Below are positions 4,886 to 44,893 of a stretch of DNA of 64,000 bases, one piece after another. The notes beneath the pieces are model-generated. The model was not told where the DNA came from. It did no database searches and saw only the letters and a list, made by a program, of their open reading frames with translations. The first letter of the stretch is position 1. The number at the start of each line of letters is the position of its first letter. The stretch is from assembly GCA_029565675.1 (NCBI GenBank), contig JAKQNP010000025.1, positions 1 to 64,000 of the forward strand. The letters are read 5' to 3'. The position numbers were made by a program, and so were the translations under genes. The stretch is from a bacterium (GTDB taxonomy: Bacteria; Zhuqueibacterota; Zhuqueibacteria; Residuimicrobiales; Oceaniaggregativiventaceae).

Positions 4886-5005
4886 CTTCTCACGATCCTT
4901 ATATTAAATGAACCTTCAGCAGCCGAATTCTTATCGATCGAATTCATCAAAATCATCTTAACGATTTTATTGTATTTGCATTAGCCACGATTTGCAGCCC
5001 TGTAC

Positions 5006-5133
5006 GGTGCACAGCACCGGATCCTCACAGAAAATAAACCTGTTTGCGATACGCAAAAGGTGAAAAGTTCCCTTTTCGCAACCGCATAGAAAATAAGCGA
5101 TTGAATGTTTGATGATTCGGTTAACACCGAATC
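5006..5133 (-). repeat. Dispersed double-hairpin repeat, copy A (inverted)
   Basis: The reverse complement of this stretch matches copies at 14093-14223 and 17406-17537. It has a hairpin at each end (GATTCGGTTAACACCGAATC at 5114-5133, and GGTGCACAGCACC near 5006-5018). About 85 bp lies between them and includes TTCTATGCGGTTGCGAAAAGG. It occupies most of the gap between the corrinoid-protein gene and the UroD-type gene, inside the operon. Confidence 0.75.
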
Positions 5134-5241
5134 TGGGTTGCACCCGTTTGGTACAAATATCCGATTGTATTTATCGGATTTTCGGTGCTTTGCACCGTAA
5201 CCGGGGTCAGTGCTGCCCCGTCTGACGACAGGACACCACGG

Positions 5242-9894: not shown

Positions 9895-10408
9895 GAGGAA
9901 GCCGTTTCATTTTTATCTAAGCATGATTTGCCGACAGGCAGTTTTCTCGAATAAAGCCAGCAGCGAACTACAAACACTGATCGGATCGCCCGATTATCTC
10001 GGGATCATCGATCACAAATTTTAAGATGCTTTTGGTAATTTATGATCATTTTTTGAAATTCAAAATTTTTATTTTAAAAACCTCTGAATAATACGACTTT
10101 ATGACAGCATTCCTTTTGCAAATCGGCTGCACACGAATCTCGATCGATGATCAAAAGCTCGATCGCCGGGAAAGGTCGAACAAGCATGGGCAATCGTTTC
10201 CAAGCGAGAACATTTGGTCTGCCCCATTAGCTTTGACTCGGGGGTTTTGCAGTTGTGGAAATGACATGGGTCGGAAATTGCTGGAACCTCTATTTCAAAA
10301 AAATAGTTGTTTTATATGTTGCGCATTCCATTGTTTTTCTTTATCGTATAGTAATACCATCTATTTGTTCAGCATTTGAGGTTGGCTGCACAGAGTGGGA
10401 TGGTTTTA
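9895..10408. other. Intergenic, AT-rich
   Basis: No supported gene; a frame at 10101-10379 has no recognisable composition. The stretch at 10290-10326 (TTTCAAAAAAATAGTTGTTTTATATG) recurs near 36320-36356, directly ahead of the broken aminopeptidase copy. It must hold the promoter of the rightward propeller gene. Confidence 0.5.
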
Positions 10409-10478
10409 TTGGGGAGTGATGATGAGAGCTCATGAGCAGGACATGTGGGACTGTTTGTGGGCTTTTTGTGTTTATACC
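10409..10478 (+). repeat. 70-bp dispersed repeat, copy 1
   Basis: TTGGGGAGTGATGATGAGAG through TTTATACC, 67 of 70 positions identical by eye to 42727-42796. It contains the perfect palindrome GCTCATGAGC. It lies 33 bp upstream of the propeller gene start. The three differences would all change the amino acid if it were coding, which argues for a noncoding or regulatory role. Confidence 0.85.
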
Positions 10479-14002: not shown

Positions 14003-14092
14003 CCCGGGAGACAGCAGTGCCCCGGCACAGGAAACCACCCGGCGAAATTGCAGCCCTCAGAGCGAAAATTTGACCGGACTTGTTCCGACCCA

Positions 14093-14223
14093 GATTCGGT
14101 GTTAACCGAAGCAAGAAATATTCACTCGCCTATTCTTTATGGGGTTGCGCAAAGGGTACCCTTCATCTTTGGTGTATTGCCATCAGATTGATTTTCTGGG
14201 GTATTCGGTGCTTCGCACCGAAT
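14093..14223 (+). repeat. Dispersed double-hairpin repeat, copy B
   Basis: The left hairpin GATTCGGTGTTAACCGAA starts at 14093; the right hairpin ATTCGGTGCTTCGCACCGAAT is at 14203-14223. The interior (TTCTTTATGGGGTTGCG, GCCATCAGATTGATTTTC) matches copies A and C. It lies between the aminopeptidase and TPR genes. Confidence 0.8.
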
Positions 14224-17220: not shown

Positions 17221-17405
17221 TAGGAATTTTGATTTTGTTGGGGGTCAACTGATAAACTGACAGGAACGGATAACCGATAATTTTGATGAATGATAATTTC
17301 CAGAAAAGGTACGAGAAATGTGCAAAACTGTTTGTATGTAAATATACAAGAGCCGATTTGTCAACTATGCTGGCGAAACTCTCACAAAAATCAGTTTCGT
17401 TCTCA

Positions 17406-17537
17406 GATTCGGTGTTCACCGAATCAAAAAACATTCAATCTCTTGTTCTTTATGCGGTTGTGAAATGGGCACTTGTCACCCTCTGTGCATTGCTATCAGA
17501 TTGATTTTATATGAGATCCGGTGCTGCGCACCGGATC
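17406..17537 (+). repeat. Dispersed double-hairpin repeat, copy C
   Basis: The left hairpin GATTCGGTGTTCACCGAATC is at 17406-17425; the right hairpin GATCCGGTGC-TGC-GCACCGGATC is at 17515-17537, with a 10-bp perfect stem. The interior TTCTTTATGCGGTTG and CTATCAGATTGATTTTA match copies A, B and D. It fills the gap between the truncated GT4 and the nucleotidyltransferase gene. The rest of 17221-17581 shows nothing else. Confidence 0.85.
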
Positions 17538-17581
17538 CGGGTCGTTGTTTCACGCAGCAAAATAATAATATGTCACTGGAC

Positions 17582-42425: not shown

Positions 42426-42726
42426 TTGAGTTTTCCAGTGAACCGATAGGAATTTTGATTTTTTCTGTAGGTTTTACCCGTCTCCAAAGTAAGTCAAGGA
42501 AGCGGGGTAATCGTTACTCTGAGGGCAAAAGAGTCTGATTTTTTTCGCATTTTGAGGCTATTGGGCCAGATCGGGCTCCCCTTTCAATTGCAATCGATGA
42601 AATATTAGCCAAAAAGCACTCGAAAAACAAGAACTATTTAAAAATTCGGAAGAAATTGGCGATGCCCATAGCGGTTATGCGCGAGAAATCGAGTCAGGAG
42701 AGGCTGCATCAAGGGTGACGGTTAAA
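42426..42726. other. Intergenic with fragments
   Basis: CGATAGGAATTTTGATTTT at 42444-42462 recurs at 17218-17236, where the truncated GT4 ends. A frame near 42596-42750 (LEKQELFKNSEEIGDAHSGY) has TPR-like composition but no start. I see no intact gene. Confidence 0.45.
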
Positions 42727-42796
42727 TTGGGGAGTGATGATGAGAGCTCATGAGCAGGACATTTGGGACTGTTGGTGGGCTTTTTGTCTTTATACC
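42727..42796 (+). repeat. 70-bp dispersed repeat, copy 2
   Basis: Matches 10409-10478 at 67 of 70 positions by eye. Here it does not precede a secreted-protein gene; the following 300 bp contain only AT-rich DNA with a TTAATTGG/CCAATTAA hairpin near 42997. Confidence 0.85.
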
Positions 42797-43096
42797 GATA
42801 ATTATCCGCATATAGTGAATTCATCCAGAATGCATTTCGAAAAGATGAATCTGCTCTCCCCTCCTCTTGTTTTGATGCGAATTCTGCAACTCAGGTTTCG
42901 TGAATCCGTTGCTATCGGTTTATGACTGATTATTGCAAAGTTGGTCGACCAAATATTCAATATCAGGGCAGGATATAACAACAAGATTAATAAAAATTTA
43001 ATTGGCCACCAATTAATAAATCAGTGGATTTTCCGCTGAATAGAAGGTTAGCTGGGTTTATAACAGTGGCAATATTTTTTTTAAAAACAGGTTTTT

Positions 43097-43417
43097 TTAT
43101 TGCGGGATATCCGGAGGAAATTTGATATTTTTAAGAGCTTTCAAGATTTTGTCAGCGTCCTTTTTAGCGATGATACGCAAAATAAAAACGATATCGTTTT
43201 CAATGCCATAAAATACTCGGAACGAGTCGGAGTCCAGGTCAATCCGCAGGCGATAGCAGGGAAATTTCAGTCCCTGGATGCGTTTGATCTTATTCTTGAA
43301 CGGAAAAGGATTGTTTTCAAGTTCGATCGTTTGCATAACAATTTGTCTTTGCCGATCGCTTGAAAAGCGCTTTAAATCCTTTACGGCTCTTTTGGTGAAT
43401 TCGACTTTAAACTTCAT
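43097..43417 (-). CDS. RelE/ParE-family toxin
   Basis: 106 residues from the ATG at 43417. VEFTKRAVKDLKRFSSDRQ is the RelE N-terminal helix pair. KRIQGLKFPCYRLRIDLDSD and FRVFYGIENDIVFILRII are the beta-sheet and active-site strand with the conserved YRLRI arginines. Typically a ribosome-dependent mRNA endonuclease. It overlaps the antitoxin stop by 11 bp, so the two are co-translated. Confidence 0.9.
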   Translation of the reverse strand: MKFKVEFTKRAVKDLKRFSSDRQRQIVMQTIELENNPFPFKNKIKRIQGLKFPCYRLRIDLDSDSFRVFYGIENDIVFILRIIAKKDADKILKALKNIKFPPDIPQ

Positions 43418-43679
43418 CCGGCGATTCGCTTTCGATCTGTTCGAGCAATTCACGCGCGTCTATCGTCTCATCGCTCTCATGCTCTTTTTTCGCTCGTTTA
43501 AGCTGTTTTTCAAGATCGAAATGTTTGGCCAAGATAAAATCTTCCACCTCGTCGCCATCGATTTTAGAAATAACAGCGTAAGGTTGGCCATTGCGGGTGA
43601 CAATCACATCCCCTTCCTCATTGGCACTTTTTATATATTTGGAAGGCGATTTTGACAGTTCTCTGATATTGATGAATTT
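43407..43679 (-). CDS. Phd/YefM-family antitoxin
   Basis: 90 residues from the ATG at 43679. MKFINIRELSKSPSKYIKSA and GDVIVTRNGQPYAVISKID are the Phd/YefM DNA-binding fold. The acidic, flexible C terminus (DARELLEQIESESPDEV) should wrap the toxin. The pair points away from the higBA cassette, and its promoter lies in 43680-43791. Confidence 0.9.
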   Translation of the reverse strand, partial: KFINIRELSKSPSKYIKSANEEGDVIVTRNGQPYAVISKIDGDEVEDFILAKHFDLEKQLKRAKKEHESDETIDARELLEQIESESPDEV

Positions 43680-43791
43680 CATATTGGCTCCGCTATCATG
43701 TTCTTGCAATTGTAAGTACAATATACGCTTATTCTAAATATCGCGCAACATATTTTTTATCGATCGATGTTAGGCAGTGACGCCGATAACC

Positions 43792-43872
43792 AGCTAACCC
43801 ATGCATTAACCCGATGCAGCTTCCCAACCCACATCCCGGCCACCGCTGCACGGGTTATGCGAAACGTTAGAA
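43792..43872 (+). other. attC-like integron recombination site 1
   Basis: 81 bp. The outer pair is AGCTAAC...GTTAGAA and the inner arms CATGCATTAACCC-GATGCAGC pair with GCTGCACGGGTTATGCG, giving the folded bottom-strand stem of attC sites with a one-base bulge and a central unpaired spacer. Same length and architecture as site 2. The expected cut is within GTTAG at 43866. Confidence 0.72.
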
Positions 43873-43938
43873 ATTTAAAAAGTTTGACAAAATTCAAATA
43901 TCCCTTGCAACGTATCGGGTTACACACTACATTGAAAT

Positions 43939-44217
43939 ATGATTAAATCATTCCGGCACAAAGGAATTGAAAAGCTATTTTTTGAGGATGATCGTAGCAA
44001 AGTCAACCAAGATCATGTCTCAAAATTGCTTCGTATTCTGGATAGACTCGATGCTTCGACCGGCCCACAAGATATGAACTTGCCAGGTTATCATTTTCAT
44101 GAATTAAAAGGCAAATATAAAAACATTTGGTCAGTCTGGGTTACCGGGAATTGGCGAGTTACATTTCAATTCGAGGGTCAAAATGTGATAAACGTTGATT
44201 ATCAAGATTACCATTGA
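43939..44217 (+). CDS. higB: HigB-type toxin
   Basis: 92 residues. MIKSFRHKGIEKLFFEDD, a central LDRLDASTGPQDMNLPGYHF, then HELKGKYKNIWSVWVTGNWR and INVDYQDYH are the standard HigB (RelE-like) landmarks. An mRNA-cleaving toxin placed before its antitoxin, the usual reversed order of hig loci. It begins 67 bp inside the left attC-like site. Confidence 0.93.
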   Translation: MIKSFRHKGIEKLFFEDDRSKVNQDHVSKLLRILDRLDASTGPQDMNLPGYHFHELKGKYKNIWSVWVTGNWRVTFQFEGQNVINVDYQDYH

Positions 44218-44228
44218 GGGAGTTTCAT

Positions 44229-44522
44229 ATGATTTCAAAAAGAAAACCAACTCATCCTGGCGAAATCTTACGTGAGGATGTAATAAAGCCTTTAAATCTG
44301 ACGGTCACTGAGGCAGCAAAACGATTGGGAATTACAAGAAAAACCTTATCCGCTTTGCTGAACTGCCGCGCAGGAATGAGCCCGGAAATGGCCATCCGGG
44401 TTGGTCGAGCTACAGGTACTTCGCCTGAAAGCTGGCTCTTCATGCAAGCAAAGCTAGATCTATGGTATGCTGAAAATGAAAAACTAGTCGTGAGATCACT
44501 GCAATTGGAGCCTGTGATATAA
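44229..44522 (+). CDS. higA: HigA-type antitoxin (XRE helix-turn-helix)
   Basis: 97 residues from the ATG at 44229 with GAGGGAG upstream; an in-frame TTG at 44214 overlaps the higB stop. RKPTHPGEILREDVIKPLNL, VTEAAKRLGITRKTLSALLN (helix-turn-helix) and ALSTGTSPESW-like RATGTSPESWLFMQAKLDL define the HigA family. It ends 14 bp before the right attC-like site, as expected for a cassette. Confidence 0.95.
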   Translation: MISKRKPTHPGEILREDVIKPLNLTVTEAAKRLGITRKTLSALLNCRAGMSPEMAIRVGRATGTSPESWLFMQAKLDLWYAENEKLVVRSLQLEPVI

Positions 44523-44536
44523 CACACTTACATTGC

Positions 44537-44617
44537 GTCTAACCCAAGCGTTAACCAAACGCAGTTCCCGTTCACCCCACCCAATCACCGCTGCGCTGGT
44601 TACGCTTATCGTTAGCT
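44537..44617 (+). other. attC-like integron recombination site 2
   Basis: 81 bp. GTCTAAC at 44537-44543 matches the RYYYAAC consensus exactly, and GTTAGCT is at 44611-44617. The inner arms AAGCGTTAACCAAACGCAG and CTGCGCTGGTTACGCTT pair with small bulges. Together with site 1 it delimits a 745-bp unit (43867-44611) that holds only higBA. Confidence 0.8.
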
Positions 44618-44755: not shown

Positions 44756-44764
44756 GAAGCTTGT

Positions 44765-44893
44765 TTCCTCGCCGAACAGCGCCGCATCGTAGCCAAGGTG
44801 GATCAGCTGATGGCTCTGGTGGACGAATTGGAAGCGCAGCTGGCCGCCTCCCGCGCCGCCGAGGAAAAGCTCCTCGCCGCTCTCGTCGCCTAA
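44765..44893 (+). pseudogene. Type I restriction HsdS C-terminal fragment
   Basis: FLAEQRRIVAKVDQLMALVD then ELEAQLAASRAAEEKLLAAL is the C-terminal coiled-coil spacer of specificity subunits. It lies only 9 bp after the HsdR stub, so a large deletion has joined the two ends of a former restriction locus. 44894-45083 shows nothing else. Confidence 0.82.

Follow-up and report, generated by a model that had tools for sequence, protein, structure and literature searches.

The 64,000-nt stretch of DNA that was analysed, hereafter the window, lies on contig C4 of a 64-contig draft genome of 4.43 Mb. It contains two toxin-antitoxin modules, phd-parE and higBA, each with an attC site on its right (Table 1). 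The modules are bordered on the left by a non-coding leader and on the right by a fragment resembling the specificity subunit gene of a type I restriction system. In the higBA module, the gene of a HigB-like toxin precedes that of an HTH antitoxin, which is the order characteristic of HigBA systems. The initial annotation had described higBA as the only content between a pair of attC-like sites, and this agrees with the positions, lengths and strand of the two sites; higB begins 66 bp past site 1, and higA stops 14 bp before site 2. By homology, HigB is predicted to be a RelE-like ribosome-dependent mRNase, and both modules appear to be ordinary type II toxin-antitoxin systems with presumably active toxins. 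A block ahead of higB that is kept in homologous cassettes suggests that the higBA cassette has a promoter of its own. The best three PDB matches of the fragment to the right of site 2 are weak (E 0.009-0.06), but all of them are S subunits; the fragment has no match in Pfam.

Table 1 Features of the cassette locus; positions are those of the window
Feature	Position	Strand	Details
Non-coding left flank (leader)	42656..43047	.	recurs at C62:378684-379202, 78-84% identity
Left boundary of cassette 1, GTTAGCT	43047..43053	+	putative cut between 43047 and 43048; pairs exactly with AGCTAAC, the R'' of site 1
Cassette 1 (phd-parE + attC)	43048..43866	+	819 bp; module in reverse orientation; homologues in genomes G003 and G002
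parE-like toxin	43097..43417	-	PF05016, E 7e-7
Phd/YefM antitoxin	43407..43682	-	PF02604, E 5e-10
attC site 1	43792..43872	+	81 nt; model R1 30.3 bits; belongs to phd-parE cassette; R' from next cassette
Cassette 2 (higBA + attC)	43867..44611	+	745 bp; 89.6% identity to contig C6 of genome G013; bounded by both cut points
Promoter/operator-like block (TCCCTTGCAACGTATCGGGTTACA...)	43904..43938	+	kept in homologous cassettes
higB toxin	43939..44217	+	PF05015, 76.7 bits; PDB HigB 4mct, E 1.7e-16
higA antitoxin	44229..44522	+	HTH_3, E 1.1e-6
attC site 2	44537..44617	+	81 nt; model R1 30.8 bits; belongs to higBA cassette; cut between 44611 and 44612
HsdS (type I restriction specificity) gene 3' remnant	44756..44893	+	between site 2 and PMT_2 gene

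The identity of the two sites was assessed using a covariance model, R1, trained on 30 attC sites from other genomes, which came from class 1 integron cassettes on plasmids and from arrays beside intI and included neither of the window sites. A filter-free scan of the 64-kb window recovered site 2 with an E-value of 6e-5 and site 1 with an E-value of 8e-5, whereas the third-best match reached 11.4 bits, so that there are two strong sites and no more. The attC sites of intI-bearing relatives that were not used in training mostly score 25-54 bits with R1, which places the window sites within the range of real ones. An attC consists of an R box, an unpaired central spacer, an L box helix, two to three extrahelical bases and a terminal structure (PMC11641012). 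Both window sites have this layout, with unpaired spacers of 5 and 6 nt, an L helix, a terminal stem-loop, and two extrahelical bases, a T in the L helix and an A. The R'' and R' boxes follow the pattern RYYYAAC...GTTRRRY, and those of site 2 read GTCTAAC...GTTAGCT. The boxes of site 1, AGCTAAC...GTTAGAA, have two outer mismatches because the R' belongs to the higBA cassette and the site spans a cassette junction. The bottom strands of sites 1 and 2 fold better than shuffled sequences (z -3.05 and -3.00, respectively), and the top strands fold well too, as palindromes should. In the stem, as aligned across seven homologous sites, six pairs have changed on both sides, and 87.6% of the cells are paired, compared to 19-35% when the partner strand is slid. 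The reading of the pair as attC sites in the initial annotation is thus borne out by model and fold alike. An Rfam gathering search and a tRNA scan of the window gave no matches, and a blastn search of the source genome with site 2 returned only the site itself, since attC sites diverge too fast. The window sites share the R box, spacers, extrahelical bases, L box and terminal loop with the attC sites of class 1 integrons (aadA5, catB3 and others), but differ from them in two respects: the terminal loop is rich in C and forms few pairs on the top strand, and the extrahelical base in the 5' L arm is T where C is usual. Both sites retain the features that recombination requires and would probably be mobilisable by a suitable IntI.

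The R'' and R' boxes are the two ends of one circular cassette. Therefore, the R'' box of site 1, AGCTAAC, predicts that its cassette starts with TTAGCT. The heptamer GTTAGCT lies at a distance of 43 bp from the stop codon of parE, and the probability that a given 7-mer occurs by chance within the nearest 50 bp is about 0.3%. This match and the comparison with the leader copy on contig C62 suggest the left boundary of cassette 1 listed in Table 1. The phd-parE module with site 1 has homologues in two genomes of the same family, with 83.8% identity to contig C10 of G003 and 90.8% identity, over the available part, to contig C194 of G002, and both alignments stop at the GTTA of site 1. No attC was recognised upstream of cassette 1 (best score 3.9 bits). 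A candidate third attC ending at 43053, with a length of 81 nt, was rejected, as it is the one that scores only 3.9 bits and its R'' is lost in the C62 copy.

The closest HigB among 99 related genomes, with 91% identity, is encoded by genome G013, which belongs to another family, on a contig with a full intI (C6, 483091-484035). The alignment of the two higBA cassettes extends from the GTTAG of site 1 to the GTTAG of site 2; there is no similarity between the window and G013 beyond it, and a different cassette is located upstream in G013. The G013 copy is the final cassette in an array of eight or nine predicted attC sites that starts beside intI. The housekeeping ComM proteins of the window genome and G013 are only 71% identical, against 91% for HigB, which indicates horizontal transfer of the higBA cassette. 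The R'' box of higBA, GTCTAAC, predicts the start TTAGAC, which is found in the copies from G013, G007 and G003, whereas the window copy reads TTAGAA. The related higBA cassettes in G007, G003 and G018 lack an adjoining upstream attC. The attC is correctly oriented after the gene, and the units of homology end at G↓TT (the arrow marks the cut). Together with the independent attC model, the fold, the covariation and the homologue in an intI-carrying array, this upholds the identification of higBA as an integron gene cassette in the initial annotation.

Neither an intI nor a recognisable attI lies beside the cassettes of the locus. Contig C4 has no match to an integron integrase, and a tblastn search detected no intI remnant either within 38-47 kb of the window or next to the leader copy on C62, consistent with the earlier remark that the window lacks intI. 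In IntegronFinder 2, a CALIN is a group of two or more attC sites that lacks an integrase, and the average CALIN has almost six attC (PMC9024848). The two attC sites of the window, 664 bp apart on a contig without intI, correspond to this definition; the locus is smaller than the average CALIN, and both of its cassettes are toxin-antitoxin modules. Of the initial proposal of an isolated, CALIN-type cassette, the CALIN part stands, but the cassette is not single, since phd-parE was overlooked as a second one. The superintegron of Vibrio cholerae contains 19 toxin-antitoxin cassettes, and the modules known from such cassettes include those of the HigBA and Phd types (PMC11023631, PMC8618304, PMC4537255). 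The window locus resembles such sedentary chromosomal integrons in its two-gene modules with apparent promoters of their own and in its cassettes that close in attC, but differs from the V. cholerae superintegron in having two cassettes only, no intI nearby and a distinct 81-nt type of attC.

In this phylum, integron integrases are no rarity: 35 of the 99 relatives searched have one that passes a curated cut-off. The source assembly contains one strong IntI match, with 485.9 bits, on the 3,499-bp contig C48. Besides the integrase, which is complete, this contig (1-3499) has a prohibitin-like gene and part of comM, and it ends shortly after a possible attI and first cassette start. The ComM fragment shares only 51% identity with the other ComM of the genome, on contig C25, which in turn shares 67-72% identity with that of most of its order; therefore, C48 is probably contamination. 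The C48 IntI, which is nearest to those of Pseudomonadota, was for these reasons rejected as the resident integrase. The tetranucleotide composition of C48 does not separate it from the rest of the assembly. Direct scanning for attC covered about 1.2 of the 4.43 Mb, and absence from the genome-wide R1 search is weak evidence, as that search missed both known window sites. Further attC-like sites are present in the assembly. The end of contig C43 (9617-11973) has two, preceded by a cupin gene and a Gp49/HTH toxin-antitoxin pair, respectively, and an unassembled array probably begins there; contigs C31, C44, C49 and C62 have one each. With these further sites, and with both window sites well above background, the outcome that the initial annotation named as fatal to its reading did not occur.

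The homology of the leader with C62 stops at ...AAGG↓TTAG, which is the cassette insertion point. On C62, the leader precedes another cassette, composed of a gene for a 146-aa lipoprotein-like protein and a 63-bp attC. Two loci of the source genome thus have the leader and the insertion point in common but differ in their cassettes. No attI is recognisable in the leader, which may be an old attI platform or a duplicated target. The empty target of the window locus would read ...AAGG↓TTAGCTGC, and none of the examined relatives has both flanks; the relatives with PMT_2 (G004, G009 and G011) have the right flank alone in common and provide no empty site.

Both window sites, the attC sites of two G013 higBA cassettes and their homologues constitute an 81-bp attC subfamily with covarying pairs. 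A second model, R2, was trained on seven subfamily sites, including those of the window, and scores these highly by construction (87.2 bits for site 1, a member of the training set). R2 matches occur in most genomes of the order, including 21 in G009 and 13 in G013, and are mostly located outside arrays. Among the genes upstream of them are those for PDDEXK_3 (GxxExxY) nucleases, nucleotidyltransferase-like proteins, YafQ and CopG-type proteins, as well as phd and HigBA modules. Genome G009 contains 13 alike GxxExxY nuclease cassettes with the same attC and 13 different flanks; these copies are contig-edge fragments, and their shared end has a median identity of 97.8% over 140 bp. The G at their right ends is followed by TT in ten cases, AT in two and TC in one, and thus 12 of the 13 conform to G↓WT. 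The left ends of three such cassettes in G013 are G↓TTGGC, matching the R'' prediction. An empty target is known for one solo cassette only, that on contig C52 of G013, the joined flanks of which match an uninterrupted sequence on contig C628 of G009 over 400 bp at 84% identity. The junction, CCAGG↓TTAAGC against CCTGG↓TTATGC, cut at GG↓TT, has no gap and no target duplication.

The precise G↓WT junction in a target that is not an attC, together with the lack of duplication, is as predicted for attC × attG integration. Insertion of this type outside integrons was reportedly demonstrated experimentally in E. coli by Loot et al. in 2024, and the attG consensus is said to be G↓WT. Sites of recombination that are neither attC nor attI are called attG (PMC12444791). 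The solo cassettes of the relatives resemble such insertions in their position at G↓WT, the lack of a left attC and the precise empty site. They differ from the experimental ones in that the process is read from natural genomes and that one cassette type occupies 13 places in G009. Integron machinery has apparently placed the solo cassettes outside normal integrons. The open-access literature that was searched contains no report of multi-copy solo cassettes of this kind.

Other explanations can be considered for the hairpins, for the movement of the solo cassettes, and for the origin of the locus. The 81-nt site has dispersed relatives in many genomes, and the source genome also harbours a MITE-like 142-bp repeat, and so the two hairpins could be terminators or REP- or MITE-like repeats that flank higBA by chance. 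This is very improbable, because a model built from foreign attC sites alone recognises both of them, the same type of site closes cassettes in an intI array, the R box, spacers and extrahelical bases are canonically arranged, and gene and site travel as a unit that breaks at G↓TT. It is also unlikely, if to a lesser degree, that the solo cassettes of the relatives were moved not by IntI but by a different agent acting on the attC-like end, such as another tyrosine recombinase or an IS. Their ends, G↓TTGGC...attC-G↓WT, and the absence of duplication in the one empty site have the signature of integron chemistry, the same cassette type is present inside the intI array of G013, and the conserved boxes are those that IntI needs, even though several tyrosine recombinases are found in the source genome and a spread over 13 places is the usual behaviour of transposable elements.

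The window locus might instead be the leftover edge of a larger, decayed resident integron from which intI was deleted, and not an insertion outside an integron. The leader common with C62, where another cassette is inserted at the same point, would fit an old attI-like platform, and the hsdS remnant might be what is left of another cassette. However, the tblastn searches for an intI remnant were negative, the leader lacks a recognisable attI, and the higBA cassettes of G007, G003 and G018 also stand without an adjoining upstream attC. We regard such a decay as possible but rather doubtful.

We are highly confident that the window locus is a two-cassette CALIN, in which both phd-parE and higBA are toxin-antitoxin modules acquired as integron cassettes. 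In the proposed mechanism, IntI would bind the bottom strand of attC, folded as a single strand, and cut it between G and TT. The cassettes would have come in as circles, the first of them entering at the left boundary of cassette 1. The higBA cassette may have followed at the G↓TT of site 1, or both cassettes may have arrived together. Given that no integrase of the organism's own was found, IntI may have been lost or supplied in trans. The cassettes belong to a pool of small cassettes with a single 81-bp type of attC, which in the order mostly stand alone at G↓WT rather than in arrays. We think it somewhat probable that, in this order, cassettes with toxin-antitoxin, GxxExxY or nucleotidyltransferase-like genes reside largely outside integrons and are spread by IntI-driven attC × G↓WT insertion, in the manner of transposable elements but without a transposase of their own, and that a single cassette type can reach a dozen or more copies in one genome.

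The window locus itself is an ordinary CALIN, and the notable part is the scattering in the relatives. As a CALIN of toxin-antitoxin cassettes, it widens the distribution of integron cassettes in nature; about one third of the sampled genomes of the phylum have an integron integrase. The scattering outweighs it, as natural genomes contain many solo cassettes with one type of attC at G↓WT and one intact empty target. If the proposed spread is true, IntI would act broadly in the spread of small genes, which would provide one route by which scattered toxin-antitoxin modules reach chromosomal positions.

The array beside intI in G013 (C6:484000-503614) includes two different higBA cassettes, a VapBC-like pair and a reversed ParE/Unstab_antitox pair. 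A dispersed, MITE-like repeat of about 142 bp, the ends of which are inverted repeats, has over 25 matches in the 1.2 Mb of the source genome that was examined. It is present in the window at 5005-5138, 14087-14223 and 17405-17542, and on C62, C25 and elsewhere, and it also interrupts the leader copy on C62, as a 141-bp insertion unrelated to the leader. A 95-bp segment of the window at 10384-10478 is 88% identical to part of the left leader.
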